The position numbers were made by a program, and so were the translations under genes. This document shows, one piece after another, positions 25,151-42,700 of a stretch of DNA of 49,221 nucleotides. The stretch covers positions 1 through 49,221 of the forward strand of contig LJUY01000016.1 of the NCBI GenBank assembly GCA_001304015.1, in the 5' to 3' direction. Positions within the stretch are counted from its first letter, which is position 1, and each line of letters begins with the position of its first letter. Origin of the DNA: a candidate division Zixibacteria bacterium SM23_81. GTDB taxonomy: Bacteria > SM23-81. Below the pieces are notes generated by a model. That model saw nothing but the letters and a program-made list of their open reading frames with translations. It made no database searches and was not told the origin of the DNA.

Positions 25151-26086
25151 CTATTGCTCCCTTATAAGAAAGTAGTTCTGCTGGCCATGAGTTTTTTGAG
25201 AAAGCAGGCCCTCCTCCAAGAGGGTGCCCACGAGCTTGGCTACTTCGTGCCGGTGGCGGCCCAGAGCCTGTGACAATTGCTCTACTGTGCAGGGACGGCG
25301 TCCTAGCGTTTGAAGTAGAGCCTTCCTTAACTTCCCAGAACGTCTTTTACCATACACCGAGGGGGACTGTGTAATCACGCCGGTCCGCTCACCGAAGTAC
25401 GCTTTTATCTCCTCCAGCTGCTTAGAGGTTAAAAGTCTGGCGAGGCCCTCAGCAGGCGGTCTGACAGCTGTGTTCAGATCGATATAGTCCGGCTCAATTC
25501 GGGGAAGGAGCTTCCGGATTCTCTCCAGCTCCTCGGGCCCGGAGTTGATGCCCTCCAACAGCATCACCTCCAGTCGGATACGTCCTTTGTAACGGGCACG
25601 AAAATCGACCAGTCCACCTACAATCCTTTCCAAATTCAGGGAAGAATGAGGTCTGTTCACTCGTTGAAAGGTCGCCTCAGTACCCGCGTCCAGAGATGGC
25701 AGAACAACGTCGGCCGCCAGCAGCTCCTCTTGGATCTGTCGATCCCAGAGGAGGGAGCCATTAGTGATAACCGCCACAGGGACCTCCGTCATTTTCTTAA
25801 CCCTACGGATGAGCTTCCCCAAGTCGGCGTTTAGAGTGGGCTCACCAGATCCGGAGAAGGAGACATAGTCCATCGTCGTGCCGGACTTCAGGGTGTCCTT
25901 GATCTCTTTAAGGATAAGATGAGGGAGATAGAAGCTCCCTCGCTTGACCGTCTTTCCGGTGGTGTGTCCCAGTTGACAATAGATACAGTCGAAGCTACAA
26001 ACCTTGAAGGGAATCACATCGACGCCCAGGGAGAGCCCCAAACGCCGAGAGACCACTGGGCCGTACAGGTACGAATTCTTTTTCAC
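25151..26086 (-). CDS. Radical SAM protein with C-terminal winged helix
   Basis: The enzyme has the 4Fe-4S/SAM motif CSFDCIYC near residue 33, then SFSGSGEPTLN, the SAM-binding GGE-like strand, and VAVITNGSLL. The C-terminal about 75 residues (LLQTLGRRPCTVEQLSQAL) form a winged-helix-like segment. It matches the COG0731-type radical SAM group, often placed near metal or cofactor genes in anaerobes; its substrate is unknown. I chose the GTG at 26086 (AGGAGG 5 nt upstream); a TTG at 26089 is too close to that site. It is the last gene of the metallocluster island. Confidence 0.85.
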   Translation of the reverse strand: MKKNSYLYGPVVSRRLGLSLGVDVIPFKVCSFDCIYCQLGHTTGKTVKRGSFYLPHLILKEIKDTLKSGTTMDYVSFSGSGEPTLNADLGKLIRRVKKMTEVPVAVITNGSLLWDRQIQEELLAADVVLPSLDAGTEATFQRVNRPHSSLNLERIVGGLVDFRARYKGRIRLEVMLLEGINSGPEELERIRKLLPRIEPDYIDLNTAVRPPAEGLARLLTSKQLEEIKAYFGERTGVITQSPSVYGKRRSGKLRKALLQTLGRRPCTVEQLSQALGRHRHEVAKLVGTLLEEGLLSQKTHGQQNYFLIREQ

Positions 26087-26140
26087 CAATTCCTCCTACA
26101 CTGAGAGCAGATGGCCCTTGCCAGTCCGTATATAGCAATG

Positions 26141-26395
26141 CTAACGGCCACAGCACCGTTTGGGATCGCTACAGGGATTCGTGATGCCACAGCAGGAGGC
26201 GGAATTTTGAGGCGCAGAGTTACCAATTTTGGGCGTTGGTGAGCCACCCTTGAACATGAACCCCCCGCCCCCGGTGATCAACCTCTGAACCCGGCCCCCG
26301 CACCGCGGACATCGCTTCACAGGAGGATCCTTAATGCCCTGCGCCCGCTCAAACTGATGTCCACACTTCTGACAGCGATATTCGTAGGTGAGCAT
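26141..26395 (-). CDS. FmdB-type zinc-ribbon protein
   Basis: The 84-residue protein starts MLTYEYRCQKCGHQFE and continues VKRCPRCGGRVQRL, the two CxxC knuckles of the FmdB/CxxC zinc-ribbon family. A Gly-rich segment and a Cys-rich tail (CCGITNPCSDPKRCCG) follow; the tail could bind another metal. The ATG at 26395 has GGAGGAAG upstream. It follows the DUF364 gene by 20 bp. Function unknown; such ribbons recur in this island. Confidence 0.8.
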   Translation of the reverse strand: MLTYEYRCQKCGHQFERAQGIKDPPVKRCPRCGGRVQRLITGGGGFMFKGGSPTPKIGNSAPQNSASCCGITNPCSDPKRCCGR

Positions 26396-26415
26396 GAGTC
26401 TTCCTCCACGATATA

Positions 26416-27132
26416 TCAACTTCGTATACACACAAGCCGGACCCCTTTGACCTGCCGAAAGATGGCTCCTTCCTGGATATGTGTAAGAACCATCTGGGGA
26501 TCGGCAATCTGAACTCCGCATAGAGCGTCTAAACCGTTGTCGAGAAGAACCGGCGAGAGAGGCGTTGTGGCCCCCAACATGATTCGGAAGCTGTCTTTTC
26601 GACAACTTTTCAGAATCCCATCAAGGGTGTGGTTGATCAATGTAGTGGCGCTTATGGCTATCACATCGGCCAGGGGCAGTATTCGGCCGACTGCGCTTTC
26701 TGGCAGGTCGCCTGGCTGCAGTCGTTTTTCCAGCACCCAGAGAGCTTCGGCCTGATCCTTGATTCTGGTCACAAAAGGAAAGTGGCCGATGATAGCTATC
26801 CCCTTGCCGGTCCCTTTCTCCACAATCAGTTGTTCCGCATTGACCTCCTCTCCCTGAACTTCAGGCAGCATGGAGTTGATAGCCGCCAGGCCTATACTTG
26901 TCTCCAGGAGGCTATCCGAATGAGCCAACTGGCAGAGCTCCAGGGCGGACTTTTCCGTCAAGTGGCCAGCTTGCTCTACAGGCCGGGCCGGGTGACCAGG
27001 GCACTCATCCCGCAAAGCCGATGCCAAGCCCAGGTGACGACTCAACACGGCTATCCAGTAGGCACCGACCCGCACCTCTTGAACGGGATGGTCCGGACCC
27101 AACGTGGCGATGAGATCGTCGATGGGGAACAT
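26416..27132 (-). CDS. DUF364 putative heavy-metal-chelating protein
   Basis: The 238-residue product has an N-terminal DUF4213-like part (VRVGAYWIAVLSRHLGLASALRDE) and a C-terminal DUF364 part with AIIGHFPFVTRIKD, VIAISATTLINHTLDGIL, IMLGATTPLSPVLLDNGLD and VKGVRLVCI. DUF364 is considered a metal-chelation domain and lies near molybdate, iron or cofactor genes in many anaerobes. The start ATG has GAGGG about 8 nt upstream. The frame is open upstream into the broken DUF59 gene without a stop until 27175, so an ancestral fusion or lost stop is possible. Confidence 0.82.
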   Translation of the reverse strand: MFPIDDLIATLGPDHPVQEVRVGAYWIAVLSRHLGLASALRDECPGHPARPVEQAGHLTEKSALELCQLAHSDSLLETSIGLAAINSMLPEVQGEEVNAEQLIVEKGTGKGIAIIGHFPFVTRIKDQAEALWVLEKRLQPGDLPESAVGRILPLADVIAISATTLINHTLDGILKSCRKDSFRIMLGATTPLSPVLLDNGLDALCGVQIADPQMVLTHIQEGAIFRQVKGVRLVCIRS

Positions 27133-27427
27133 AACGCTATCCCTCTCTTGCAGCGGCTTTCTCAGCTTCTCGGCCTAAACGAAACCGTCAATCTCCTCCA
27201 AAACCCTGGTCACCCCAGGCAACCCTTACAGTGTCTGCTGAATCTTGATGCCCAGCAGGCAGACGAGCAAGGTGGACCGAAAGGTCGGGAACATCTCTCC
27301 CCTGATCTCATCACCCCTTCAAATTCTGCACCAGGCTCATGTGCACCATACCCAGCCCGGTTTCCAGACCTATGACCGCTCGCAGGGCTTGGAGAACTTT
27401 TTCCTCAGGGGTTATGTTTCTTTTCAT
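27133..27427 (-). pseudogene. MIP18/DUF59 family gene, frameshifted and with two nonsense codons
   Basis: From an ATG at 27427 the frame reads EEKVLQALRAVIGLETGLG and LVQNLKG, then hits TGA-TGA. One base of a GGGG run (about 27314-27317) must be ignored to continue: GDEIRGEMFPTFRSTLLVC, LGIKIQQTL, stop TAA (27226-27228), GLPGVTRVLEEIDGFV, stop TAG (27175-27177), AEKLRKPLQE. This order matches MIP18/DUF59 Fe-S assembly proteins with a Cys-x-x-G near the middle. The stops fit single transitions from CAA and TGG. It overlaps the end of the transporter gene by 23 bp. Confidence 0.75.
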
Positions 27428-28682
27428 CCGATCTGTGCGTGGGGGCAACCAAGGGGGTAAGTTGGCTGGCCGTCAGCGCCGCCAGATTCTCGTGTCCGCT
27501 GCCATCGAGCGCTTTGTAAATCTCCACATATTTGTCACGAAGGGTGTGGAACCCGATTTCGCCCAGTTCTCTGACAATGAGTGTATCGACGCCCTCTCGC
27601 TCCACGAAGTCGTTGACCACCGCCAGACCGGCGCGAATCTCCCTATTTCGAAAGGGATTGATGAACACGTGCGTTTGCAGCACATCCCCTCCCTCCAGAC
27701 GGACCACGGCGAAGTAGGAAGCTCGCCCAAAATGGTTGGCCAGGTGAGAACTCAATCCCGATTGGTCCTCCAGAGGAATCATCACTGTTCGCCGTTGCGA
27801 TTGAAATGGCTCGATATGAACGGTAAAGCTGTCTACATGGGGAAAGCTTTCCTTCAGACGGTCTACCACCTGATGAGAGATCTGGTGACCCCGGGTCACA
27901 TCCACCGTTCGCCCAACTTCAATACTGACCTCACCAAACCAGAAAGGCCCTGCCCGACGCACCTTCAAACCATCCACCCCTCGGACACCCTCGGTGGTGC
28001 GGATGAGCTCGCTCATCCGCTTCTCCATCTTGGCATCCAGGCTGGCGTCCATTAGACCATACAAGGCCACTCGGCCATTCTTCACCCCTGCGTAGAAAAC
28101 CAGCAGGGCGAGGCCCAGAGTGAGAACTCCCTCAACGTAGGGAACCAGGAAATAGCTGGCCCCGATGGCCACTAAAACCAGCAGGGAGGTGAAGATATCT
28201 GCCCGGGATTCGTCGGCATTGGCTAACAGGCTTTGCGCGTTTATCTGCATCCCTATGCGCCTCTCCCACCGAGCCACGAAAAAGGCGAAGAGAGCGGAGG
28301 CCAAGGAGACACCCATGGCTATTCCTGGCACACTGATATCCGGTGCAACGGATATTTTGCTCAGGCCTTCCAGAAAGAGCTCCACAGCAGCGTAGATGAT
28401 GATGGCGGAGACCAGCAGAGTGGCCAAGGTCTCTGCCTTATAGAAACCGTAGGGAAATTTATGGGTGGCCTTCCGTGTGGCGATTTTCAGTCCAAACCAG
28501 GAGGCGAAGATAGCCAGAGCGTCGGCGGCGGTATGCACGGAATCTGCGACCAGGGCGATGGAGCCGCTGAGAACGCCCACGCCGGCCTTCAGCAAGGCCA
28601 CCAAGAGAGTCGTCACCGTCACGACTCCGGCGACTCGCCGTCCTTCTTTGAGATCCACCATCTCTTTTCCCCGGCTCGGCAT
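27405..28682 (-). CDS. Cation diffusion facilitator fused to a NifX-like domain
   Basis: Residues about 10-210 form the six-helix CDF transporter with metal-site motifs VADSVHTAAD in helix 2 and ANADESRAD in helix 5 (where many CDF proteins have His, here Glu). The cytoplasmic CDF tail (about 215-300) has VRRAGPFWFGEVSIEVG and FTVHIEP. The last about 115 residues resemble dinitrogenase iron-molybdenum cofactor (NifX/NifY) proteins, with SSHLANHFGRASYFAVV and VDTLIVRELGEIG. CDF proteins export divalent metals such as Zn, Fe or Mn using proton exchange. The fused domain suggests metal or cluster delivery. It is 7 bp downstream of the Mrp gene. Confidence 0.88.
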   Translation of the reverse strand: MPSRGKEMVDLKEGRRVAGVVTVTTLLVALLKAGVGVLSGSIALVADSVHTAADALAIFASWFGLKIATRKATHKFPYGFYKAETLATLLVSAIIIYAAVELFLEGLSKISVAPDISVPGIAMGVSLASALFAFFVARWERRIGMQINAQSLLANADESRADIFTSLLVLVAIGASYFLVPYVEGVLTLGLALLVFYAGVKNGRVALYGLMDASLDAKMEKRMSELIRTTEGVRGVDGLKVRRAGPFWFGEVSIEVGRTVDVTRGHQISHQVVDRLKESFPHVDSFTVHIEPFQSQRRTVMIPLEDQSGLSSHLANHFGRASYFAVVRLEGGDVLQTHVFINPFRNREIRAGLAVVNDFVEREGVDTLIVRELGEIGFHTLRDKYVEIYKALDGSGHENLAALTASQLTPLVAPTHRSDEKKHNP

Positions 28683-28689
28683 ACCTCCC

Positions 28690-29961
28690 TCAGTGATCGC
28701 AGATGTTCTCGCCCATCTCCAGAGTTCCGTCTAGATATCCGCGAACCAACTCCTCAGGCGTGAGGGAGGCAGCACCGATGACCACCTGGATGCCCTGGCT
28801 CTCAAAATGGCCCTGAGCCCGCCTGCCCATTCCTCCGGCGATGATCACCTGGGCTCCCTGTTCATGAAGCCATCTGGGCAAGGCGCCGGGCTCGTGAGGC
28901 GGTGGAGTGGCCAATGTGGTCTTTTTAATCTGGCCACCCTCTGCCTCCACCAGGGCAAACTGCTGGGAGTGGCCGAAATGAGCTGCCAGTTTTCCCTGAG
29001 ACACGGGAATGGCGATTTTCAGGGACGAAGTCTCTTTTTTCTGGGGGGCGCTCCTCTCAGATTTTGTCTCTGGGGGTAAGGTCTCCTTCCCATGCGATTC
29101 GCCCATTCCGACCAGAAGAGTTTGAACAACCCCTTCGAAGGCCTTGGCCGTTTCCGTCTTTGAATATTCGGACACGAAAGGCACGCCCTTGTCAGAGGCC
29201 TCCACCAATTGAGGATCGATGGGGATGCTGCCCAAGAAGGGCACGTTCATCTCCATGGCCATACGTTCACCACCACCCTTTTTAAAGACCTGGATTTCCC
29301 TGCCACAATGCGGACAGACCAATCCGCTCATGTTCTCGATGACGCCCAGCACGGGCACGCTCACCTGACGACAGAAGGTGATGGACTTGCGCACATCTAT
29401 GACCGACAAATCCTGAGGGCTGGTCACCACTATGGCCCCGTCGATGTTGGGGATGAGTTGGGCTACCGATAAGGGTTCATCTCCCGTGCCCGGAGGAGAG
29501 TCGATGATCAGATAGTCCAGCTTGCCCCATTCCACATCCTTTAGAAATTGCTTGATGGCCCCCATCTTCAAAGGACCCCGCCAGATCACCGCCAGATCCT
29601 GTGCGCTCAGCAGAAATCCCATGGACATCACCTTGAGATTGGCGGACATCTCGATGGGTTGAATGGTCCCCTGACCCATCCGGGGCACCCGATCTTCAAT
29701 GCCCAACAGCTTGGGTATGCTGGGACCATGAAAATCGATGTCTAACAGGCCCATATGATATCCGTCCAAAGCCAAAGTAATGGCCAAATTGGCGGCTACG
29801 GTGCTTTTCCCAACTCCACCCTTCCCACTGAGAACCATGATCTTGTGCTGTATTTCGCCCATCCTCTTGTTCAAGGCCTCCTGTTCCAACACCTGCATGG
29901 CCTCTCGATTGAGGCTCTTGGCCGCCTCCTTGCCAGTTTGCTGGCCAGCTTTCGCGCTCAT
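28690..29961 (-). CDS. Mrp/NBP35-type ATPase with C-terminal NifX-like domain
   Basis: The 423-residue protein has a deviant Walker A SGKGGVGKST (about residues 45-54), DIDFHGPSIPKLLG, IIDSPPGTGDEPLS and the Fe-S binding VCPHCG. These mark the Mrp/ApbC carriers that hold and transfer 4Fe-4S clusters. After a charged linker, residues about 315-423 are NifX-like (KIAIPVSQGKLAAHFGHSQQF, VIIAGGMGRRAQ). The same fusion is found in orange-protein gene clusters of Desulfovibrio. The ATG at 29961 has AAGGAG 5 nt upstream; a GTG at 29967 is too close to it. Confidence 0.92.
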   Translation of the reverse strand: MSAKAGQQTGKEAAKSLNREAMQVLEQEALNKRMGEIQHKIMVLSGKGGVGKSTVAANLAITLALDGYHMGLLDIDFHGPSIPKLLGIEDRVPRMGQGTIQPIEMSANLKVMSMGFLLSAQDLAVIWRGPLKMGAIKQFLKDVEWGKLDYLIIDSPPGTGDEPLSVAQLIPNIDGAIVVTSPQDLSVIDVRKSITFCRQVSVPVLGVIENMSGLVCPHCGREIQVFKKGGGERMAMEMNVPFLGSIPIDPQLVEASDKGVPFVSEYSKTETAKAFEGVVQTLLVGMGESHGKETLPPETKSERSAPQKKETSSLKIAIPVSQGKLAAHFGHSQQFALVEAEGGQIKKTTLATPPPHEPGALPRWLHEQGAQVIIAGGMGRRAQGHFESQGIQVVIGAASLTPEELVRGYLDGTLEMGENICDH

Positions 29962-30269
29962 CGTCACTCCTTTCTATGTAAGTCGACCTGCCACAAATCG
30001 CCTTCAACTCTCATATAGATTATTTACCTTGTAAACGGCCTTCAATTGTTCTTGCGATAAGTTGCTTCTTTCGCAATCTTATAATAGCTTACATCGAGTC
30101 GGCCCTCAGAGAACGACAACAGCCTGAAGGGTTATCAAACTTTGTCAAATATTTCCTTAACTTATCAAAACTCATCTTTAATTACCAGTTCTGCTCATAA
30201 AATTATGATACCAGCATAACAACCCCAAGGATATGGTACACCTCAGAGAAAATTAATTGGAGAAACCTT
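29962..30269 (-). other. Gene-free spacer upstream of the Mrp gene
   Basis: The A+T-rich spacer likely holds the Mrp promoter. An inverted pair TTGCGA/TCGCAA at about 30051-30075 recalls the GCAAT boxes of the sigma-54 regulator. A possible -24/-12 site is off by one base in spacing (see rejected items). Confidence 0.4.
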
Positions 30270-30923
30270 CTACTCCTTTAACTCTATGGCCAAGACAAAA
30301 AAGGGGGCCAGTGGTATTTGGCCAAAGGGGCCTTTCCACCAAGAAGATATGCGCATCTTAGCCCTAACGCCTAACTGACGCGATACCCTCCGGACCATGC
30401 TCATCAACGCAGGACCCGAGTAAAACCGGGTCTGAGAAAAAATTGTGGCGCGAGAGATGGCCCGTACACGACGACCGAGAGCCAACAGGCTCAGGGAGTT
30501 CAAAACACCCAATATGATCCCATTACGACTCACGCGAATGGCCTCAGCTAGGGCTTTCTCCGGGCGTGCTGTAGACTCCAGGGTGGTAATCATGGTGGAG
30601 AAATGAAAGCTCTTATCTGCGAAGGGAAGCTTGGCCGCATCACCCCAGCAGTAAACTATGTCGTTTCCGGAAAGCTGTTTGGCCTGCGAGAGCATCTTTC
30701 TCTCCAGGTCCAAGCCCCAGACCTGCCAGCCCAACTCCCGAAACCAGCGGGTGAAATGGCCCGTGCCGCATCCGATGTCCAACAACTGACGCCCCCTCGC
30801 TGGGCCCAAAGACTCCTCGATGAGACCTTTCTCTAAAACGTCGTACCTTCTCCCCCGTGAGGTCTGGTACCATGCCTCATAGATCTCAGCCACATCGGCC
30901 CAGCCGGGCTGTGTCCTGGCCAA
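30270..30923 (-). CDS. Class I SAM-dependent methyltransferase
   Basis: The 217-residue protein has motif I LLDIGCGTGHFTRWF, acidic loop GLDLERKML, CWGDAAKLPFADKSF and the post-motif region VSRNGIILGVLN, like UbiE/Methyltransf_11 enzymes. The methyl acceptor is unknown. It starts with TTG at 30923, 5 bp after the second MinD-type gene, so it is co-transcribed with the ATPases and may modify a component of that system. Confidence 0.82.
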   Translation of the reverse strand: MARTQPGWADVAEIYEAWYQTSRGRRYDVLEKGLIEESLGPARGRQLLDIGCGTGHFTRWFRELGWQVWGLDLERKMLSQAKQLSGNDIVYCWGDAAKLPFADKSFHFSTMITTLESTARPEKALAEAIRVSRNGIILGVLNSLSLLALGRRVRAISRATIFSQTRFYSGPALMSMVRRVSRQLGVRAKMRISSWWKGPFGQIPLAPFFVLAIELKE

Positions 30924-30928
30924 AGGAT

Positions 30929-31795
30929 TTACCCCCCCGCCAACTCATAGCTAATGTGTCGCCAGAGCTTCTCAATCTCCTTGGCGACAAGCCCACTGGA
31001 ATACTCCACCACAGTCTTTCCCTGTACCATAGCTTTGGTAACCACTGTGTCATAGGGAATCCTGCCCATCAGCTTCAGCTTGCGCCCACGACAAAAATCC
31101 TCCACCTGGCCGGTCAGCTCCGGGTTGAGGTCGAATTTGTTCACACAGACCAAGGCCGGAATGTGAAAATGAGCAGCCAAATCCACCACCCGTTTCATAT
31201 CGTGAAGGCCGGACAGCGTCGGCTCGGTCACCACCAACACGGCAGTGGCGCCGGCTATGGAGGAGATCACCGGGCAGCCGATGCCCGGAGCGCCATCTAC
31301 GAGAACTAAGTCCAAACCCTCCTTTTCAGCCAGCAGCTTGGCATTCTGGCGGACCACCGCCACCAGCTTGCCCGAGTTCTCCTCGGCGATGCCTAGTTTG
31401 GCGTGTACCAAGGGACCGAAACGGGTGTCGGACAAAAACCACTGGCCGGATACGTTTTCCTGGAGCTTTATGGCCTCCTCAGGGCAGAAGTGGACGCAAA
31501 CTCCACAGCCCTCACAGGCGATCTTGTCCACCACGTAATTTTCGGAGATGGCCTCGTAGCGACACACTTCTCGACATTTATCACACTGGACACAGCGCCC
31601 CGGGTCGATGACCGCCGATTTGCTGCTGCGAAAATCCTCCCGGTGTTTCACTCGTGGCTCCAAGAGCAGATGGAGGTCGGCGGCGTCCACATCGCAGTCG
31701 GCCAACACTTTCCTCTCAACTAGAGCTGCAAAAGAACCCACAATGCTGGTCTTGCCCGTTCCGCCCTTGCCGCTTATGACCACCAGCTCCTTCAC
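30929..31795 (-). CDS. MinD-family ATPase with inserted 2x[4Fe-4S] ferredoxin domain (second of pair)
   Basis: The 288-residue protein has the deviant Walker A ISGKGGTGKTS at residues 7-17, then a ferredoxin insert with CVQCDKCREVC and CEGCGVCVHFC, then the Walker B VDGAPGIGCP and VTEPTLSGLHDMKRV. Pairs of such ATPases are part of the orange-protein complex in Desulfovibrio. They probably load or move a metal cluster using ATP, with electrons through the ferredoxin insert. It overlaps the first ATPase gene by 4 bp (ATGA), which supports equal production. Confidence 0.92.
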   Translation of the reverse strand: MKELVVISGKGGTGKTSIVGSFAALVERKVLADCDVDAADLHLLLEPRVKHREDFRSSKSAVIDPGRCVQCDKCREVCRYEAISENYVVDKIACEGCGVCVHFCPEEAIKLQENVSGQWFLSDTRFGPLVHAKLGIAEENSGKLVAVVRQNAKLLAEKEGLDLVLVDGAPGIGCPVISSIAGATAVLVVTEPTLSGLHDMKRVVDLAAHFHIPALVCVNKFDLNPELTGQVEDFCRGRKLKLMGRIPYDTVVTKAMVQGKTVVEYSSGLVAKEIEKLWRHISYELAGG

Positions 31796-32655
31796 TCTTT
31801 CACCTCCACGGAGGGAGTCAAAGCCACGATGTTCTCAAAAAGCGCCCCAAATTTCTCCTCATATTCAGGCACCGAGTCGAGAATCAACTGTCCCCGGGAA
31901 TAGCCCTCGGCGATACGCCGGTCGTCGGGAATCTCCATCACAATGGGAATTTCCTCTTGGTGACAGTAATCGACCACTTTTCGATCGCCGACATCCGCTC
32001 GGTTGATGACCACACCATGGGGAAGTCCCAAGGCTCGCACCATATCTATGGCCAGCACAAGGTCGTTGAGCCCAAAGGGAGTGGGCTCTGTGACCAAAAT
32101 GCAGATATCGCTGCCCTTCACCGCCTCGATGACCGGGCAAGAGGTTCCTGGTGGGGCATCGATGATGCTGGTGCCCTTGAGGGAAATTTCCTTCTTGACC
32201 TGTCTGATTAAAGGTGGTGACATAGCCTCCCCAATTTTTAGTATGCCGTGTACAAAGTGAACCCCGTTAGCGCATCCCTTCTCGATGATCCCTATCTCTC
32301 TGGGCACTTCGGAGATAGCTCCCTCAGGGCAGACCAAAGAGCACCCCCCACAACCATGACACAGCTCCGGGAACGTGAGCACCGCGTCTTTGATGCACAC
32401 GATGGCGCTGAACTGGCAGATATCACCACACTGGCCACAGCCGGTGCACCTGTTTCGATCCACTTCTGGGACGGGCAAGCTGATCGTCTCAGAAGTATCA
32501 AAGGAGAGCCGGAGGAAGAGGTGACAATTGGGCTCCTCCACATCGCAGTCCAACAGCTGAACCTTCTGGCCCTTGCTGGCCAGACACATAGCTAAATTGG
32601 TGGCCACTGTGGTCTTCCCGGTTCCCCCTTTTCCAGAAGCGACAGCTATGATCAT
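31792..32655 (-). CDS. MinD-family ATPase with inserted 2x[4Fe-4S] ferredoxin domain (first of pair)
   Basis: The 287-residue protein begins MIIAVASGKGGTGKTTVATN. It has CTGCGQCGDIC and CHGCGGCSLVC in the ferredoxin insert, then IIDAPPGTSCPV and LVTEPTPFGLNDL. It is a paralogue of the next gene; the two probably work as a heterodimer. Established knowledge: homologous paired ATPases (DVU2103/DVU2104) belong to the orange-protein complex of D. vulgaris. Start ATG with GAGG about 9 nt upstream; 24 bp after the metallo-hydrolase gene. Confidence 0.92.
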   Translation of the reverse strand: MIIAVASGKGGTGKTTVATNLAMCLASKGQKVQLLDCDVEEPNCHLFLRLSFDTSETISLPVPEVDRNRCTGCGQCGDICQFSAIVCIKDAVLTFPELCHGCGGCSLVCPEGAISEVPREIGIIEKGCANGVHFVHGILKIGEAMSPPLIRQVKKEISLKGTSIIDAPPGTSCPVIEAVKGSDICILVTEPTPFGLNDLVLAIDMVRALGLPHGVVINRADVGDRKVVDYCHQEEIPIVMEIPDDRRIAEGYSRGQLILDSVPEYEEKFGALFENIVALTPSVEVKE

Positions 32656-32679
32656 CCCATAAATCCTCGACGTGAACAG

Positions 32680-33477: not shown

Positions 33478-33523
33478 GGTCAAAACTCACCTGAGCTCAT
33501 TTTAAAGATGTCACTTCTAGCTC

Positions 33524-33895
33524 GATCTATTCATAAATTTGCTTTATGCCCCGCAGAGACTCCCCCTCTGCGGACAGAGCCTAAGGAGCAAGAACTCCCC
33601 AGTTGCAAATGAGTTGCAAATCGTTTGGCGGTTTCGAAGCACGTAACGTGAATCGTGATTCGTTATTCGTGGTTCGAGAAAACCCACCAACTGCTCCTGC
33701 CAACTGCCACTGAGAGGAATCGGCCCCCATGATCCGGGAACCGGCGAAAACCGAGACTAGAAATTAGAGATTTGTGAAAATCTTGCTAACTGCCACTGCC
33801 AATTGCTGATCTCATCCCATCTCCTCAGCACCGCGGGCGAGCGCAGCTCGCCCGTATATTCCCTCCTATTGCCATTGCTATCGCCATTGCTGTGG
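33524..33895. repeat. Dispersed intergenic element, copy A, with hairpin
   Basis: No gene is present. The element begins TATTCATAAATTTGCTTTATG and holds a perfect hairpin CCGCAGAG-7 nt-CTCTGCGG (33551-33573). It continues with GGCGGTTTCGAAGC, ACGTAACGTGAATCGTGATTCG and CCAACTGCCACTG-type units. The same blocks in the same order lie at 38200-38395. Both copies separate a NifX-like gene's end from the next gene's start. Confidence 0.7.
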
Positions 33896-34567
33896 TTATT
33901 TCTTTTTCTCAAGCTCCGCAATTCGCTTTTGTATCTCATCCAGCTGTTCCGATATAGCCCGGGCTTGCTGCTTCAGCATATCCAGTTCCTGCTCCTTGGA
34001 CATCTGAGGAGGGGAACCTGTCATAGGACCCCCGGCCATACCAGCGCCCATGCCTCTTCCCATGCCTCTTCCCATACCTCTTCCCATACCCCTTCCCATA
34101 CCCCTTCCCATACCCATGCCTGGCCCCATACCACTCCCCATGCCGGGTCCGGGCATGGCAGGCTGGGGAGATTGTTGGGCGGCCTGCTCACCCGCTGCGC
34201 CGCCAGACACACCAAATTTGCTGTCCACACTGGGCCCGGATGCTGCTGAGAACACCCCGGATTTAAACTTCTCCACAGCCTCTTTGACGGGCCCGCTGAC
34301 CCCGACGATCACCTGAATGCCGGCAGCTCCAAAAGTCTGAAAGGCATTGGGGCCGCAGTTGCCCGTCAACACTGTCTGGACCTCTCGCTGGGCCAACAGC
34401 TGAGCTGACTGGATACCCGCTCCTCCCCCCAAGGCGATGTTGGGATTCTCAATCCCCTCAAACTCCATGGTATCGGGATCGACGATCAGAAAGTAAGCAC
34501 AACGGCCAAATCGGGCCTCCACCTGGTGGTCAAGGGTTGGCCCAGTGGATGTCACAGCAATTTTCAT
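33896..34567 (-). CDS. NifX/orange-protein-like protein with GMGR repeats and coiled-coil tail
   Basis: Residues 1-110 are a dinitrogenase Fe-Mo-cofactor-type domain: MKIAVTSTGPTLDHQVEARF, GRCAYFLIVD, LTGNCGPNAFQTFGAAGIQV. A linker leads to about 45 residues of Gly-Met repeats (GMGRGMGRGMGR...). The tail (about 190-223) is a coiled coil, EQELDMLKQQARAISEQLD, matching those of two DUF5320 proteins in this island. The NifX domain should bind a metal cluster or precursor in the cytoplasm. The Met/Gly/Arg repeat could bind soft metals such as copper, which is inference. Confidence 0.88.
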   Translation of the reverse strand: MKIAVTSTGPTLDHQVEARFGRCAYFLIVDPDTMEFEGIENPNIALGGGAGIQSAQLLAQREVQTVLTGNCGPNAFQTFGAAGIQVIVGVSGPVKEAVEKFKSGVFSAASGPSVDSKFGVSGGAAGEQAAQQSPQPAMPGPGMGSGMGPGMGMGRGMGRGMGRGMGRGMGRGMGAGMAGGPMTGSPPQMSKEQELDMLKQQARAISEQLDEIQKRIAELEKKK

Positions 34568-34585
34568 GAAATATCCCTTCTGCTT

Positions 34586-34798
34586 TTATGTGATTGGACA
34601 CGTCCCCGTCGGACAGGAACCACTTGGAGTGGTCGAGCCACTGGCCATCCTGACGTTCGGAACGGACAGGAGCCTTCGCATTTGGTTGCTTCCACACTTC
34701 TCGCAGCGGTGTTCCTCCGTGGAATTTGCAGAACTTTCCAGAAACTCCGTTACATGCCGACACTTCTCACATCGGTATTCGTAGATGGGCACTCTCAT
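34586..34798 (-). CDS. FmdB-type zinc-ribbon protein
   Basis: About 70 residues: RVPIYEYRCEKCRHVTEF and HRCEKCGSNQMRRLLSVP give the two CxxC knuckles. The C-terminus is Ser/Thr/Pro-rich with two further Cys (GSCPTGTCPIT). It lies 18 bp before the NifX-GMGR gene. The ATG overlaps a close GAGGTG site; a GTG at 34801 is the alternative start. Confidence 0.78.
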   Translation of the reverse strand: MRVPIYEYRCEKCRHVTEFLESSANSTEEHRCEKCGSNQMRRLLSVPNVRMASGSTTPSGSCPTGTCPIT

Positions 34799-34860
34799 CA
34801 CCTCGATCTAAAAGCAGGTTCTCAGGGAGATGTTGGCCATCCCCCTGAGAACTTGGCATC

Positions 34861-35229
34861 CTACTTTTTCTCCTCTTGACCAGCTGTCTCCAATTCCTGG
34901 ATTCGCTTATTGATCTCCTGGAGGGCATCCTCAAAGTACTTGGCTTGATCCTTCAACCCCTCCAGCTCCTGTTCAGGAGCTATCTGGGGAGAGTATGGCC
35001 AGCCAAAAGCTGGATAAGGTTGAACTCCCCAGCCAAAGCGCGCCCAGCCAGGAAGGCCAGTGGCATAATACCAGTGGCGCCAGCCACGTCCCCAACCACC
35101 ACCGCCCCAGAAACCTCGCCCAGGAATTAGATTCATGTACCCCGGCATGTCGTATCCAGCACAATAGCCGGCAGCACGTCCTGTTCTGGGACCCATTCCC
35201 ATGGGACCCGTTCTGTCTCCTCCTGGCAT
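34861..35229 (-). CDS. DUF5320 glycine-rich protein with coiled-coil tail
   Basis: The 122-residue protein starts MPGGDRTGPMGMGPRTGRAA, the hallmark of DUF5320. A Gly/Trp/Tyr-rich middle follows (GRGFWGGGGWGRGWRHW) and a coiled coil ends it (EQELEGLKDQAKYFEDALQ). Such proteins are common in anaerobes next to NifX-like genes; function is unknown. GGAGGATAAGTAA provides the ribosome site. Confidence 0.8.
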   Translation of the reverse strand: MPGGDRTGPMGMGPRTGRAAGYCAGYDMPGYMNLIPGRGFWGGGGWGRGWRHWYYATGLPGWARFGWGVQPYPAFGWPYSPQIAPEQELEGLKDQAKYFEDALQEINKRIQELETAGQEEKK

Positions 35230-35267
35230 TTACTTATCCTCCTTTCAAACAAAGTGTTAGGTGAACA

Positions 35268-35735
35268 TTACCACCCCCGCCCAAACCATCTTCGCCCCCC
35301 TCCTCGGCCCCGACCACGGCCACGGCCGAAGCCCGGCCCAAAGTATCGCGCCGGGAATCCGCGTCCGTAGAAGGGCACCCCAGCATAGGAGTATGCTGTC
35401 GGGTATCCCGTTTGTGCAAACGAAATGCCAGCTCGACCCCAATAGGGGTTCATAAAGCCGGGGGTGGGGTAACCGGCACACAAACCGGCTGCTCTCCCCG
35501 TCATGGGACCCATTCCCATGGGACCCGTTCCATCTCCGCGAGGCATCGAGATCGCCTCCTTTCCATCTATTTGCGGCTCTCTGGAGGAATAGCTCACCGG
35601 CACACCTCTGAGGCCCGCATAGCCCTGGACGCCGGGATCGCCGTCTTTCTGCGAACCTTTCAAAATGCAGTAACCCAGACCACGTCCCGTCATAGGCCCT
35701 GTGCCGTTAGGTCCTGTCCCGTCAAATCCTGGCAT
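35268..35735 (-). CDS. Double DUF5320 protein, probably two genes run together
   Basis: The 155-residue frame holds two DUF5320 starts: MPGFDGTGPNGTGPMTGRGL at residue 1 and MPRGDGTGPMGMGPMTGRAA at about residue 64. The second start has its own AAGGAGG site 8 nt upstream (35541 region), so two products, or a fusion plus an internal product, are likely. The C-terminal part is Gly/Arg/Tyr-rich (GPGFGRGRGRGRGGGRRW) with no coiled coil. A lost stop codon between two tandem genes is the simplest history. Confidence 0.75.
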   Translation of the reverse strand: MPGFDGTGPNGTGPMTGRGLGYCILKGSQKDGDPGVQGYAGLRGVPVSYSSREPQIDGKEAISMPRGDGTGPMGMGPMTGRAAGLCAGYPTPGFMNPYWGRAGISFAQTGYPTAYSYAGVPFYGRGFPARYFGPGFGRGRGRGRGGGRRWFGRGW

Positions 35736-35794
35736 GGTCCATCATCCCCTCTCTGATGTCCAACCGGTCTGGATGTCGACAATCGCATATGGGC

Positions 35795-36016
35795 TCATCT
35801 GGCCCTGCTCATGGGCATCCCGCAACTTGGACAGGTCATGCCCATACAGGGCACGCCCCTTTTGTGCGGCACCGTTTTGCCACAGTTGGGGCAAACGCAG
35901 TTACCACCTAAGCCAAGGCCAAAGCCTCCCATTCTGCCTCCTCCGCCTCCCCGGCCCATTCCTCTTCCCGTACCCGGGCCTTTCCCCGTAGGCCCCGTTC
36001 CGTCACCCCTTGGCAT
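35795..36016 (-). CDS. Small DUF5320-like protein with zinc ribbon
   Basis: The 73-residue protein begins MPRGDGTGPTGKGPGTGRGM, has a Gly-rich stretch, then a zinc ribbon NCVCPNCGKTVPHKRGVPC and CPSCGMPMSRAR. It is therefore a fusion of the DUF5320 head with a metal-binding ribbon. AAGGAGGTGA lies 6 nt before the ATG at 36016. The gene start overlaps the NifU-like gene's end by 14 bp. Confidence 0.75.
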   Translation of the reverse strand: MPRGDGTGPTGKGPGTGRGMGRGGGGGRMGGFGLGLGGNCVCPNCGKTVPHKRGVPCMGMTCPSCGMPMSRAR

Positions 36017-36452
36017 TCGACTCACCTCCTTGATTTTCACAATTCTTCAGTGCTTGATGCAAAGTGTCCACGGCTAACTTAGCGCAATGCAGGTGAGATT
36101 CTGGCAATCCACCCAGGGCTATCAACAATGTCTCCTGATTGAGGGCAGCTGCCTCGGTTATGGTTTTGCCTAAGGCCAATTGAGAGAGTACGCTGCCGCA
36201 GGCCACCGTCGGACCGCATCCATCGGTCAGAAACCCGATTTCAACGATTCGATCCTTATCGATCTTCAGACCGATGTACATGGTATCACCGCATGGGCCG
36301 GTGATAACCGATACCCCATGAGGATCGGAGATCTCTTTTAAGTTTCTTGGTTTAAGATAATTATCGATCACCCGCGGGGAGAAGATCTTACGATCCTCCG
36401 CCAGGATAAGTTCCTGAAGTTCTTTGGTCCACTGATCGGAGGCATTATCCAT
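36003..36452 (-). CDS. NifU N-terminal/IscU-type Fe-S scaffold protein
   Basis: The 149-residue product carries the scaffold ligands: Cys and Asp in ITGPCGDTMYIG, Cys in FLTDGCGPTVACGS and His-Cys in HLHCAKLAVDTLHQAL. IscU-type proteins assemble 2Fe-2S and 4Fe-4S clusters before transfer to carriers such as Mrp. The ATG at 36452 overlaps the DUF89 stop by 8 bp (ATGGATAA), a usual coupling; upstream in-frame ATGs at 36467 and 36485 are possible. Confidence 0.85.
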   Translation of the reverse strand: MDNASDQWTKELQELILAEDRKIFSPRVIDNYLKPRNLKEISDPHGVSVITGPCGDTMYIGLKIDKDRIVEIGFLTDGCGPTVACGSVLSQLALGKTITEAAALNQETLLIALGGLPESHLHCAKLAVDTLHQALKNCENQGGESNAKG

Positions 36453-37359
36453 TTGGCCGATTCCCATCTCCAAGTGCTTCAGCATCCTCTCTATCGAGGT
36501 TGTGGAGACCCGCCTCTTTGACGACCAAACTCCCTTCCTGGACGCCCAGATCCCTGGCCAGCACAGGACATTTGGCCTTCAGCAAGTAGAAGATGTGTTT
36601 ATCTATGTGACTGAGGGTCTCATAGTTACCCTGCCCTTTGGAGATGATCAGGTCGGCCGCTGCAAATCGCTGGCGGAACTCCGGCGAGCAATCCTCCAAG
36701 ATGGTCCCCGGAGCATCGGATCCGTTGTCGATCACCGGAATGAGCCCATTCAATCCGGTGTCATTCAGGTCGCTCATGGTGATGTCATTAATGGCCGGAC
36801 CTCCCCGGACCACAAATGTCACCTTCTCCCGGGGAAGATGCTCTAGAAGAAGCCGATCAAAGAAGACCTCCCCAGCGTTGTCTCCCAAGTAGAGGATGTC
36901 TTCAGCCTGATCTATGGCCTGCCAAAAGCCTGCCCTGTCGTCTATGATCAGCTCATCCGAAAGAGCTGGCTCCAGAATGGAACCTATTTTCGTCCCCAGG
37001 TCGAAACCTGGGGGACCAAAATCAAGGACATTGCCGGCAACAGCCAGCCTGAGGGCCGAATCTTTTGGATTTTCAGATCGGGCCACCATCTTTTTAACCT
37101 GAGGATAGCTCTCAGCACACAGCATGTTGTAGCGAAGTTTCTCAGCCCGGTAAGGATCTGGGTCGCCAGTTTCTTCCCGCACTATTCGGTGAATTCTCTG
37201 GCCCATATGTGGCGGGGTGAGGTTAAAGGAGAAGTCAGCGGTTTCGCGCAAAACTCGCTTCATAATTCGAGCCTGTACCCGGTCATCTTGGGTTGCCATG
37301 CGGCTGGCTTCCAGGGCCTGTCGAAAAAAACAGGGAATGCAGTCCAGAAACGTTTTCAC
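36445..37359 (-). CDS. DUF89/ARMT1-like metal-dependent phosphatase
   Basis: The 304-residue protein has the N-terminal CxxC (KTFLDCIPCFFRQALEA), LRLAVAGNVLDFG, the acidic metal site LYLGDNAGEVFFDRLL, PVIDNGSDAPGT and ISKGQGNYETLS. DUF89 proteins are metal-dependent phosphatases thought to remove damaged phosphometabolites. The GTG at 37359 comes 4 nt after the preceding NifX-like stop and fits the family's MKTFLDC start; an upstream in-frame ATG at 37407 would overlap that gene. Confidence 0.85.
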   Translation of the reverse strand: MKTFLDCIPCFFRQALEASRMATQDDRVQARIMKRVLRETADFSFNLTPPHMGQRIHRIVREETGDPDPYRAEKLRYNMLCAESYPQVKKMVARSENPKDSALRLAVAGNVLDFGPPGFDLGTKIGSILEPALSDELIIDDRAGFWQAIDQAEDILYLGDNAGEVFFDRLLLEHLPREKVTFVVRGGPAINDITMSDLNDTGLNGLIPVIDNGSDAPGTILEDCSPEFRQRFAAADLIISKGQGNYETLSHIDKHIFYLLKAKCPVLARDLGVQEGSLVVKEAGLHNLDREDAEALGDGNRPNG

Positions 37360-37363
37360 TAGT

Positions 37364-37726
37364 TCAGCCCCAGTGATCGGGAACGTCCGGACTTTGGGTG
37401 AACTCAAGCTGTTCCTTTTTGAACTTCTCTACTACTTGGCCCACGGTGCCCTGGATGCCCACCACGACCTTTACGGCCGCTTCCTTCAGGACCATGAAGG
37501 CATTAGGACCGCAATGTCCCGCGATGACAACCTCCACCCCTTTATTGACCACAGTCTCGGCGGCTTGAATGCCCGTCCAATGGTCAACGTTGAGATTCTG
37601 GTGGTTGTCTATTACCTGGACGTCCTCCGTATCGGTGTCGATGACCAGAAAGAAATTCGCCCTGCCAAACCGCTGGTCAATTTCTGACTCCAAAGTGCGG
37701 CCGGTGGATGTTATGGCGATTTTCAT
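37364..37726 (-). CDS. NifX/orange-protein-like protein
   Basis: The 120-residue single-domain protein reads MKIAITSTGRTLESEIDQRF, GRANFFLVIDTDTEDVQVID, VVIAGHCGPNAFMVLKEAAV. Size and motifs match the dinitrogenase Fe-Mo cofactor superfamily that includes the Desulfovibrio orange protein, which holds a Mo-Cu sulfide cluster. Of the members here this is the closest in size to a free ORP. GGGAG lies 6 nt before the ATG. Confidence 0.9.
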   Translation of the reverse strand: MKIAITSTGRTLESEIDQRFGRANFFLVIDTDTEDVQVIDNHQNLNVDHWTGIQAAETVVNKGVEVVIAGHCGPNAFMVLKEAAVKVVVGIQGTVGQVVEKFKKEQLEFTQSPDVPDHWG

Positions 37727-37742
37727 GGTAACTCCCCCGACT

Positions 37743-37766
37743 AGGGGGCGGCGGACACCGCCCCCT
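37743..37766. other. Strong intercistronic hairpin
   Basis: AGGGGGCGG (37743-37751) pairs perfectly with CCGCCCCCT (37758-37766) across a 6-nt loop. On the transcribed minus strand it is not followed by a T run, so it is more likely an mRNA-stabilising or processing hairpin than a terminator. Confidence 0.6.
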
Positions 37767-37783
37767 TTGCAATCCATTAATTC

Positions 37784-38152
37784 TCACTTGGTCTTTTTCT
37801 TGCCCTCGGCCTCCATATCGCCTATGCGCTGACGAATGGCCTGAAGCTCCTGATCCATGGCTTTCGCCTGGGCCTTCAAGGATTCCAGCTCTTGCTCCGG
37901 AGTCCACTGGGTCGGAGACGGCGCTCCCCAGTATGGAGGCGGATATCCCCCATATATGGCCTGCCAGCCCCAGCCGCGCCCACCACCCCAGGCGCGACCT
38001 CTGCCACCGCCCCAGGGAAGACCGCCGCGGCCAACGCCGCGAGGAAACACTCCCGGACCGTAAGCAGGACCCACACCAGGAGGACAGAAACCGAAACCTC
38101 CGCCGGTTCTCGGTCCCAAACCACGAGGACCAGTTCCATCAAATCCTGGCAT
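37784..38152 (-). CDS. DUF5320 glycine-rich protein with coiled-coil tail
   Basis: The 122-residue product starts MPGFDGTGPRGLGPRTGGGF and has a Gly/Pro/Trp-rich middle (GVGRGGLPWGGGRGRAWGGG). It ends in a coiled coil, EQELESLKAQAKAMDQELQ, that also occurs in the proteins at 33896 and 34861. AAGGAGGTG precedes the ATG at 38152; an in-frame start at 38179 is less likely. Confidence 0.8.
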   Translation of the reverse strand: MPGFDGTGPRGLGPRTGGGFGFCPPGVGPAYGPGVFPRGVGRGGLPWGGGRGRAWGGGRGWGWQAIYGGYPPPYWGAPSPTQWTPEQELESLKAQAKAMDQELQAIRQRIGDMEAEGKKKTK

Positions 38153-38199
38153 GTTCGACACCTCCTTTCTAAGAAACATCTAAATGCTTAGTGGCACGG

Positions 38200-38467
38200 T
38201 CTACTCATAGATTTGCTTCATGCCTCGCAAAGGTTCTTGCCTCTGCGGATAGGGTGTTGCCTTCGTCGTGAGTCGGTTGGCGGTATCGAAGCTGGTAACG
38301 TGAATCGTGGATCGTGATTCGTGCTTCGAGGAAACTTGCCAACTGCCACTACCAACTGCCACTTCTATTGCCATTGCCAATCGCCATTATGTTTTTCTCA
38401 AATCTCGGCTCTCGGTTTTTCAAGGCTCCATCGAATTTGATGAATAATTCGCATTGTGCTCTGCAAA
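38200..38467. repeat. Dispersed intergenic element, copy B
   Basis: The blocks follow the order of copy A at 33524: TACTCATAGATTTGCTTCATG, a slightly imperfect hairpin (CGCAAAG 38226-38232 with CTCTGCG 38241-38247), GGCGGTATCGAAGC, GGTAACGTGAATCGTGGATCG and CCAACTGCCACTA units up to about 38395. No gene is supported in it. Confidence 0.7.
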
Positions 38468-38857
38468 TCAACCCAGAAACCATGGAGAGCCTTCCCCTTT
38501 CCCCCGCCGGCGCCATCGCCGGCATCTGCCTCCGGGCCCGACCGCCAATCGCGACCGCAGCTGCCCCGTTAAGAGCAGCAGGATGACCTCCTCGATATCG
38601 CCGGTCACCCAGGGAAATACCCTCACCCCGCGCCTGGTCAGAGACCGCAGGGTAAAACGGTTGATGCCACCACAGATGACCACATCCACACCTCGCTGAT
38701 AAACCCAGTTGATTCGGGCCAGGGGATTTTGCCCCCCCATGGAGAACCTTTCCCTCCCGGTGATTTTCTCCCCATCTATCGTGATCAGTAACATGTCGGG
38801 CGCATGGTCGAAACGAGGAGAGACTCGCGATTCGAAGACAGGAATGGCTGCGGTCAT
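38468..38857 (-). CDS. NifX-like protein, first gene behind the sigma-54 promoter
   Basis: The 129-residue protein (MTAAIPVFESRVSPRFDHAP, VDVVICGGINRFTLRSLTRR, VFPWVTGDIEEVILLLLTG) is a divergent member of the dinitrogenase Fe-Mo cofactor superfamily. The final about 25 residues are very basic (CRRWRRRGKGEG). GGAGG lies 6 nt before the ATG at 38857. A TGGCAT-N5-TTGCC promoter ends about 25 bp upstream, and GCAAT boxes lie further up. It is the first gene of the island after its regulator. Confidence 0.85.
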   Translation of the reverse strand: MTAAIPVFESRVSPRFDHAPDMLLITIDGEKITGRERFSMGGQNPLARINWVYQRGVDVVICGGINRFTLRSLTRRGVRVFPWVTGDIEEVILLLLTGQLRSRLAVGPGGRCRRWRRRGKGEGSPWFLG

Positions 38858-38880
38858 GGTCAACCTCCAACCTCGTGGAA

Positions 38881-38896
38881 GGCAAGGAGTATGCCA
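38881..38896 (-). promoter_or_regulatory. Sigma-54 (-24/-12) promoter
   Basis: The minus strand reads TGGCATACTCCTTGCC, with the invariant GG and GC separated by 10 nt. This is close to the TGGCACG-N4-TTGC consensus. The predicted transcript starts about 12 nt before the gene at 38857, leaving a short leader with GGAGG. Confidence 0.75.
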
Positions 38897-38993
38897 AAGG
38901 CCAGAGATTTTTCTGGAGCGCTATAAGCTCAACTTTTAAAAGACCCTACAGATAAGAAGCCGTTGTACTCTGCGAGAACATCAAATCATTTTG

Positions 38994-39043
38994 ATTGCAA
39001 TATCGCAATATTCTGTGCTTAAATGTTGCGGATTTGCAATATT
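38994..39043 (-). promoter_or_regulatory. Upstream activator sites (GCAAT boxes) for the sigma-54 regulator
   Basis: Plus-strand reading: ATTGCAATATCGCAATATT at 38994-39012 and TTGCGGATTTGCAATATT at 39026-39043. GCAATAT recurs three times. The sites lie roughly 100-160 bp before the -24/-12 promoter, the usual position for enhancer-binding proteins. The same box occurs at 40428-40458 on the regulator's own promoter. Confidence 0.65.
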
Positions 39044-39047
39044 CTCG

Positions 39048-40388
39048 TCATTCTGCCTTTATGCCCATACGTTTCATCTTGCGCCACAGGGTGCTGGGGT
39101 GGATGCCCAAGGCCCGTGCCGTCTTACCCCTGTGACCAGCATTTGCTACCAGAGTCTCCCGGATGACCTTGGCCTCCGATTCTGTGAGGGGATCGCCCAA
39201 GGCCTCTCCCTCAATTCCCGCCGCTTTCATCCTCCCGGAAATCTCCTCGGGAAGGTGTTCCAGCTCTATCACCTTACCTCGACACAGGACGAAGGCATGT
39301 TCGATGATGTTCTCCAATTCCCGTACATTGCCGGGGAAATCGTGGCGCATGAGCAGATCTAAGACCTTCGCAGACACACCAGTTATGTGCTTTCCTTTCT
39401 TAAGGTTGAAGCTGTGAACGAAGTGTTCCACCAGCAGGGGGATATCCTCCCGGCGCTGGGCCAGGGGCGGCAGATCGATCTTGACCACATTCAGCCGATA
39501 GTACAGGTCTTGACGGTAACGTTCCCCCTCCACAAGCTCAGCCAAGTTTCTGTTGGTGGCAGCGATGACACGCACGTCTGCCTTGACGGGAGCAGTAGCT
39601 CCCAGGGGCTCATACTCCCGTTCCTGAAGCACCCGAAGCAGCTTCACCTGCATGGCCGGGGAGATGTCCCCGATCTCGTCCAGAAATATAGTGCCCCCCT
39701 GGGCCAACTTAAAGCGACCCGGCTTGTCCTTCTTGGCGTCGGTAAAGGCTCCTTTGATATAGCCGAAAAGCTCTGATTCCAGAAGGGTGTCCGGGAGAGC
39801 TCCGCAGCTGACCACCACATAAGGCCCTTCTTTTCTGAAGCTGAGGTCATGGATGGCTCGGGCGAAAAGCTCCTTCCCGGAACCGCTGGGCCCCTGGATC
39901 AGAACGGTGCTGTCGCTCTCAGCCACATCGGGAAGAACGACAAAGATTTCCTGAATCCTGTGATTCTTGCTGATGATGTCCATGAAGGTATACCTCTTGG
40001 TGATCTCCTTCTTCAGCTCCTCAAGGGCGGAGAGGTCTCGGAAGGTCTCCACACCGCCAACCACCTTGCCTGCCTCATCCCGCAGAACGGCGGTGCTGAT
40101 GCTGACAGGTACTCTGGTGCCCCGATTGTTCAGAACATCGATGGGCACGTCGATGATCTGCTGACCCGTCTCAATGGTCTTTTTCAGGGCACAGGCCGTC
40201 TGGCATATGCTGGCCTGGAAGACATCGCTGCAGCGCTGGCCGATGGCATCTTCCTGGGAGACGCCGGTGATCTGCTGGGCAGCCTTGTTAAAGGAGGTGA
40301 TCCGCCACTCGGTGTCCACGGTGAACACGCCATCGGCGATGCTGTCCAGAATGGTTGACAGAAAGCGGTCCTGTTTTTGTTTCTCCAT
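39048..40388 (-). CDS. Sigma-54-dependent regulator with Cys-containing PAS domain
   Basis: The 446-residue protein has PAS (about 8-125), AAA+ (about 138-370) with Walker A GPSGSGKE and Walker B TIFLDEIGD, and a Fis-type helix-turn-helix at the end (GKTARALGIHPSTLWRKMKR). The sigma-54 contact loop is GAFTDA instead of GAFTGA. The PAS domain has Cys53, Cys62 and Cys66 (RCSDVFQASICQTACAL), a possible metal or redox site. A homologous regulator (DVU2106) controls the orange-protein operons with sigma-54 in D. vulgaris. It sits directly upstream of the island it probably controls. Confidence 0.92.
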   Translation of the reverse strand: MEKQKQDRFLSTILDSIADGVFTVDTEWRITSFNKAAQQITGVSQEDAIGQRCSDVFQASICQTACALKKTIETGQQIIDVPIDVLNNRGTRVPVSISTAVLRDEAGKVVGGVETFRDLSALEELKKEITKRYTFMDIISKNHRIQEIFVVLPDVAESDSTVLIQGPSGSGKELFARAIHDLSFRKEGPYVVVSCGALPDTLLESELFGYIKGAFTDAKKDKPGRFKLAQGGTIFLDEIGDISPAMQVKLLRVLQEREYEPLGATAPVKADVRVIAATNRNLAELVEGERYRQDLYYRLNVVKIDLPPLAQRREDIPLLVEHFVHSFNLKKGKHITGVSAKVLDLLMRHDFPGNVRELENIIEHAFVLCRGKVIELEHLPEEISGRMKAAGIEGEALGDPLTESEAKVIRETLVANAGHRGKTARALGIHPSTLWRKMKRMGIKAE

Positions 40389-42698: not shown

Positions 42699-42700
42699 GC

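Follow-up and report, generated by a model that had tools for sequence, protein, structure and literature searches.

An island around paired MinD-ferredoxin ATPases in a Zixibacteria genome is an extended variant of the orange protein system and may handle metal sulfide

A 49,221-nucleotide stretch of DNA from candidate division Zixibacteria bacterium SM23_81 (assembly GCA_001304015.1, contig LJUY01000016.1; the whole stretch is hereafter the window) carries on its minus strand, between positions 25151 and 40388, an island of 20 genes, every one an open frame. The island is an extended variant of the already known orange protein (ORP)/MrpORP system, although the majority of its components are functionally uncharacterized. 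Comparison with related loci indicates that the genes added to the MinD-ferredoxin (MinD-Fd) ATPase core are coherent with that core and are not chance neighbours, and the same sequence comparison casts the known ORP core as the pared-down form of a far larger set of genes found in many phyla. We propose that the island may be a single module with which anaerobes build, keep and pass on an anionic metal sulfide, probably that of iron, a reading for which we find the case evenly balanced. What the orange protein and its unusual cluster do in the cell is unsettled, and iron and sulfide storage in anaerobes is largely open; the proposal ties ORP to iron-sulfide storage of the IssA type in a way that can be tested, and names the DUF5320, Cys6-His, DUF89, MBL and FmdB proteins as testable candidates.

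Results

The genes of the island recur together across phyla

A preliminary description of the window had named a Desulfovibrio-type ORP core (paired MinD-Fd ATPases, Mrp-NifX, a free NifX-like protein and a sigma-54 regulator) surrounded by genes outside that core. Pfam scans of the island proteins, on which the domain calls below are based, confirmed the core and recovered every domain of the earlier list (PF02579 five times, NifU_N, ARMT1/DUF89, DUF364 with DUF4213, and the others); an MBL-fold gene with a hydrophobic N-terminus (32680–33483; PF00753, 44.4 bits) had been missed.

We compared 1343 kb around 95 MinD-Fd loci, 80 of them fetched with ATPase A and 15 taken from related genomes, with 572 kb of control DNA, drawn at random from the host genome and its relatives and supplemented by the flanks of the window; the loci, being the best matches of one protein, are non-independent, and the control covers few genomes. 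The loci were labelled Planctomycetota, Deltaproteobacteria, Aminicenantes, Myxococcales, Fibrobacterota, Bacillota, Omnitrophota, WOR-3, Chloroflexota, Spirochaetes, Hydrogenedentota, Zixiibacteriota and others; the host phylum seems sparsely sampled, three same-phylum relatives having been returned. NifX1 to NifX3, DUF5320, the Cys6-His protein, DUF89, NifU_N, FmdB, MrpORP, the radical SAM protein, the methyltransferase and DUF364 all had zero matches in the control DNA, and the MBL class gave 26 matches around the anchors (25 of the 95 loci) versus 1 in the control. Recurring neighbour genes nearly all share the strand of the anchor, and the window has 13 gene classes in common with each of a Sedimentisphaerales and a Myxococcales locus, in changed order. 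DUF5320 was present in 13 of 41 genomes, every one among the 17 with a MinD-Fd ATPase. The neighbourhood comparison suggested in the preliminary description thus upheld the added genes, which recur across phyla on the same strand and are mostly absent from the control. They do lie outside the core as published for Desulfovibrio, yet across the wider family genes of this kind are common.

The ATPases and the scaffold keep key residues, and MrpORP belongs to its curated family

ATPase A (31792–32655) and ATPase B (30929–31795) each combine a CbiA/ParA domain with two Fer4 motifs. The Walker A motif, the eight ferredoxin cysteines and C173 are invariant among 55 sequences of ATPase A; in ATPase B Walker A is likewise kept, and the eight cysteines and C174 are conserved at 100% (86 sequences). 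In both proteins the additional cysteine lies seven residues past the Asp of a DxPPGxxC motif, which we take to be the same spacing as that between Asp125 and the cluster ligand Cys132 of the nitrogenase Fe protein, as judged by residue counting rather than superposition. The predicted model of ATPase A (pLDDT 94.5) matched the folds of ApbC (Z 24.5), BchL (23.3) and the nitrogenase Fe protein (about 22), and also that of MinD.

The NifU_N/IscU-type protein (36003–36485; PF01592, 87.8 bits), whose nearest solved chain is NifU-1 (4eb5), has C65, D67 and C90 conserved at 100% and H133 and C134 at 96% in 29 sequences; the three Cys and one Asp positions of the IscU/NifU ligand set (C65, D67, C90 and C134) are kept. 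A second, canonical NifU_N gene is located elsewhere in the genome, on contig C75. The Mrp-NifX protein (28690–29967) is a member of the curated NCBIfam family NF041136, scoring 546.7 bits against a cut-off of 450, and is accordingly MrpORP. MrpORP of Desulfovibrio (D. vulgaris/G20) carries and transfers Fe-S clusters in vitro (PMC6345978).

Five NifX-like domains belong to five separate types

Five PF02579 domains were found within 11.4 kb (27474–38833), both by Pfam and by a search of the host's own genome, in agreement with the earlier count of five in about 11 kb. In the 53 loci of relatives that span at least 13 kb, the median number is 2 and the largest is 4. In a tree of 209 PF02579 domains, nifX1 (38468–38863; 43.4 bits), which has an Arg-rich, Cys-containing tail, belongs to a clade of its own with 37 members (support 0.98). 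nifX2 (37364–37777, with a likely start near 37732; 83.8 bits) is of the orange-protein type and clusters with the D. gigas ORP 2wfb (support 0.87 with 40 members and 0.98 with 46 members). nifX3 (33896–34567; 85.7 bits), in which a NifX domain is followed by GMGR repeats and a DUF5320 C-terminus (PF17253, 41.1 bits), sits in a GMGR-tailed sister group of the ORP clade together with 22 of the 23 other GMGR-tailed proteins, and its nearest solved structure is again ORP 2wfb. A broad clade (0.93) unites nifX2 and nifX3 with MTH1175, and ORP falls inside it too. The NifX domain of MrpORP belongs to a clade of 37 (0.91), and the domain fused to the CDF exporter stands apart. Because the five domains are placed in five clades, they are old separate types and not a recent tandem expansion, and five separate conserved types would fit the several carriers proposed earlier.

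Other open frames join the same parts. NifX1 and the Cys6-His protein are fused in one frame at L017:6032–6733 and L047:7009–7689, and NifX, DUF5320 and a 2x[4Fe-4S] ferredoxin are fused in two same-phylum relatives (L084:890–1690 and L086:8603–9370).

DUF5320 proteins resemble the tail of IssA in composition

The preliminary description counted three or four DUF5320 proteins. Three genes exceeded the curated PF17253 cut-off of 27 bits, namely DUF5320 a (37784–38179; 80.3 bits), c (35268–35735; two repeats, 77.3 bits over two stretches) and d (34861–35229; 87 bits), as did the nifX3 tail, a further copy fused to NifX; the fourth candidate (35795–36040) scored 21.4 bits, below the cut-off. This Gly/Arg-rich protein carries a Cys6-His metal knuckle in which six Cys and one His are invariant in 36 sequences. 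Its C-terminal knuckle is ordered and its N-terminus disordered, and a fold search with its model gave weak zinc-ribbon or rubredoxin-like matches only (E about 1 or worse). It is a candidate counterpart of the small [2Fe-2S] protein Orp5.

In a set of 56 DUF5320 proteins from 42 loci, median contents were 27% Gly, 15% aromatic, 12% Pro and 4% acidic residues, with a median isoelectric point (pI) of 9.6, and a conserved Cys was present in 51 of the 56. The IssA tail contains 15 Gly, 14 aromatic and 7 cationic residues per 70 and has a pI of 10.7; it is Pro-rich, then cationic, aromatic and Gly-rich in order, bears the single Cys of the protein, and has been proposed to bind anionic thioferrate (PMC5524996). 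The nifX3 tail (residues 113–190) is 33% Gly with a pI of 11.8.

A sigma-54 promoter precedes nifX1

The activator gene (39048–40388) encodes a Pfam-confirmed PAS-sigma-54 protein with the GAFTDA motif, the motif also given for DVU2106 (PMC4641369), which it resembles. Orthologues scoring at least 430 bits were found in 27 of the 95 loci, the best control match reaching 288 bits, and RpoN is present in the genome. The motif TGGCATACTCCTTGC lies 33 bp upstream of nifX1 (38882–38896, minus strand; P 0.004 versus shuffles) and occurs 23–61 bp upstream of nifX1 in 14 of 31 relatives, compared with 0.2% of random 150-base stretches; before other gene classes it was seen in a few cases at most. The sigma-54 signal comes only from this comparative positional test, as a consensus search of the whole window returned 6 sites versus 6.5 expected, which is at chance level. 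No sigma-54 promoter was found in the intergenic gaps of 288, 412, 302 and 272 bp downstream of the nifX1 unit. Since such a promoter precedes none of the other units in the window, the evidence bears out the earlier claim that one sigma-54 regulator governs the island only as far as the first unit.

Other lineages carry a Fur-family or a DUF134 gene, found in 14 and 19 of the 95 loci, respectively, with 0 and 0 control matches. The activator co-occurs with a Fur-family gene in one locus and with a DUF134 gene in three, and this small overlap suggests, by counts, that one regulator may take the place of another. Fur-family, DUF134 and TrmO genes lie near the ATPases, for example at L078:475–945, L025:3883–4200 and L032:8233–8781, and none is present in the window; TrmO genes occur in 13 of the 95 loci and gave 1 control match. 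Outside the island, a near-perfect sigma-54 site, TGGCACGACCTTTGC (44272–44286, plus strand), precedes an open reading frame at 44330 and sits behind a divergent kinase/sigma-54 response-regulator pair (40941–44056).

Accessory genes, borders and a second copy

The remaining genes of the island encode a DUF89/ARMT1-like member of a metal-dependent phosphatase family (36445–37407; PF01937, 225 bits; like 2g8l/2ffj), FmdB zinc ribbon 1 with a conserved GSCPTGTCP tail (34586–34801; PF09723, 48.2 bits), a class I methyltransferase (30270–30923; PF08241, 73 bits), a CDF metal exporter fused to NifX (27405–28682; Cation_efflux, ZT_dimer and PF02579), a DUF364/DUF4213 protein with a putative role in heavy-metal chelation (26416–27132; PF04016, 108.5 bits), FmdB zinc ribbon 2 with a Cys-rich tail (26141–26395; PF09723/Zn_ribbon_8, 59.6 bits; TIGR02605), and a radical SAM protein with a winged-helix-like C-terminal region (25151–26089; PF04055, 57.1 bits; 19 of the 95 loci). 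The exporter has FieF as its nearest solved chains, and its nearest models are MamB, MamM and FieF, below their cut-offs. The radical SAM protein has one CxxxCxxC cluster motif and no NifX fusion, which rules it out as NifB. No PF00148 match (NifDK/NifEN) was found in the assembly, which is 92.6% complete, and a nitrogenase cofactor pathway is ruled out accordingly.

The flanking two-component genes (21294–24114 and 40941–44056) showed no association with MinD-Fd loci and were dropped as island members, so the borders drawn in the preliminary description are about right. Rfam and tRNA scans of the window gave no matches. Contig C62 of the same assembly (locus L081, 1–6378) carries a near-collinear second copy of the segment between nifX1 and ATPase A, both included, with a DNA identity of 77% over 4.3 kb, at a distance from the window similar to that of the same-family genome G001. 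It is either an old duplicate or a contaminating contig (assembly contamination is 4%), and composition decides neither way. Orthologous pairs with the C62 copy or G001 indicated purifying selection on the small genes, marking them as genuine genes (dN/dS about 0.05–0.25), a range that excludes nifU versus C62, where synonymous sites are saturated, and the non-orthologous pairs minB/C62, duf5320a/G001 and nifx2/G001.

Discussion

If the island is a metal-sulfide module, the PAS-sigma-54 activator would fire the promoter upstream of nifX1, which the comparison of relatives revealed, and the NifU-type scaffold, its ligands conserved, would gather the cluster. ATPases A and B would spend ATP to reduce or move it. 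NifX, the Gly/aromatic/Arg-rich DUF5320 proteins and the GMGR tail may form a polymer-like store, as composition and fusions suggest and as has been proposed for the IssA tail. MrpORP would hand Fe-S clusters to clients, as the D. vulgaris/G20 protein does in vitro (PMC6345978), and the FieF-like CDF-NifX protein may export surplus metal. Signs of iron come from the Fur-family neighbours, the FieF-like exporter, the NifU scaffold and Fe-S transfer by MrpORP homologues; in O. alaskensis G20, Dde_3197–3199 change alongside feoA and flavodoxin (log2 about 6–7; PMC10533852). The preliminary description envisaged a heterometal cluster, but the sequence bears no sign of Mo or Cu, the host has no nitrogenase and the circumstantial signs point more toward iron. 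On these sequence-based grounds we favour iron sulfide over a Mo-Cu cluster, with a confidence that does not exceed an even chance. Several observations weigh against a module for iron sulfide. There is no cysteine desulfurase within the island, three members are weakly tied to it (CDF-NifX in 2, the methyltransferase in 7 and DUF364 in 7 of the 95 loci), and the nifX3 tail has 1% aromatics (FWY), unlike IssA. Fur-family genes occur in just 14 loci and might encode Zur or PerR, nifX2 groups with the D. gigas ORP, which is known to carry a Mo-Cu-S cluster rather than iron sulfide, and the G20 expression data come from copper exposure (PMC10533852).

In a tentative alternative, along the lines of the preliminary description, the island builds and moves the ORP cluster [S2MoS2CuS2MoS2] and the added genes are extra maturases and carriers. 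We know of no protein other than the D. gigas ORP on which a Mo-Cu cluster has been found. The placement of nifX2 within the D. gigas ORP clade, the ORP structure nearest to nifX3, the match of core and regulator to the Desulfovibrio system (PMC6345978, PMC4641369) and the rise of G20 ORP-system genes in copper-exposed cells (PMC10533852) are consistent with it; however, the island encodes no transporter or insertase specific for Mo or Cu, its Fur-family and NifU-type partners indicate iron, and MrpORP carries Fe-S in vitro (PMC6345978). The copper-linked expression in G20 (PMC10533852) would also suit metal detoxification, with excess metal trapped as sulfide and exported and the NifX proteins acting as sensors or sinks. 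The exporter adjoins MrpORP, and Pfam names DUF364 for heavy-metal chelation, but scaffold, ATPases and carriers exceed what detoxification needs, and the exporter is not central, since CDF-NifX is found in so few loci; we consider this explanation improbable.

It is still harder to see the MinD-like ATPases as devices that position a complex within the cell, a role suggested for the ORP complex of D. vulgaris, which was described as 'putatively involved in cell division' with MrpORP at the cell poles (PMC6345978). The MinD fold agrees with such a role, but each of the ATPases has a pair of ferredoxin clusters plus one more invariant Cys, the genes around them encode metal-sulfur proteins, and polar placing could be that of a metal store. 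Least credible of all is a small ORP core among chance neighbours. Gene order is reshuffled between phyla and a few parts recur rarely, yet most classes have zero control matches, one strand is used throughout and parts are fused to one another; the comparison largely refutes chance, which is possible just for CDF-NifX, the methyltransferase and DUF364.

Within the metal-sulfide module reading, we advance as a speculative extension a widespread undescribed anaerobic system for metal-sulfide storage and trafficking. DUF5320, acting in trans and fused to NifX, would be a polymer matrix that binds anionic iron sulfide. Loading and emptying would fall to the NifU scaffold together with a MinD-ferredoxin ATPase heterodimer, the extra cysteines of which would bind one cluster between them in the manner of the nitrogenase Fe protein.

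Among known systems, the carriers of nitrogenase cofactor assembly (NifX, NafY and NifB) share with the island the PF02579 domain and a nearby radical SAM gene, but here the host lacks nitrogenase and the radical SAM protein is single-motif and not NifX-fused. NifU/IscU scaffolds have the same ligands (C65-x-D67, C90, H133-C134), although no desulfurase stands beside the island gene. The ORP system of Desulfovibrio vulgaris (orp1/orp2, DVU2103–DVU2109; MrpORP is Orp9) has the same paired MinD-Fd ATPases, ORP-type NifX, MrpORP, GAFTDA sigma-54 activator and sigma-54 promoter, the last here for the nifX1 unit only (PMC6345978, PMC4641369). It consists of two divergent operons, an arrangement not regarded as essential to the family, whereas the island is on one strand, and the window adds about 12 gene classes (NifU_N, DUF89, DUF5320, Cys6, FmdB, MBL, radical SAM, CDF-NifX, DUF364 and methyltransferase among them). 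With the iron-sulfide (thioferrate) storage protein IssA/IssX of Pyrococcus furiosus, nifX3 shares a Gly-rich, cationic, high-pI tail behind a PF02579 domain, and the DUF5320 make-up is close to that of the IssA tail. The nifX3 tail differs in being without aromatics and in having a predicted coiled coil at its end; the Gly/Arg portion with aromatics resides mostly in separate DUF5320 proteins. IssA particles are reported without other proteins. We do not file nifX3 as IssA, but from its sequence it may work like IssA.

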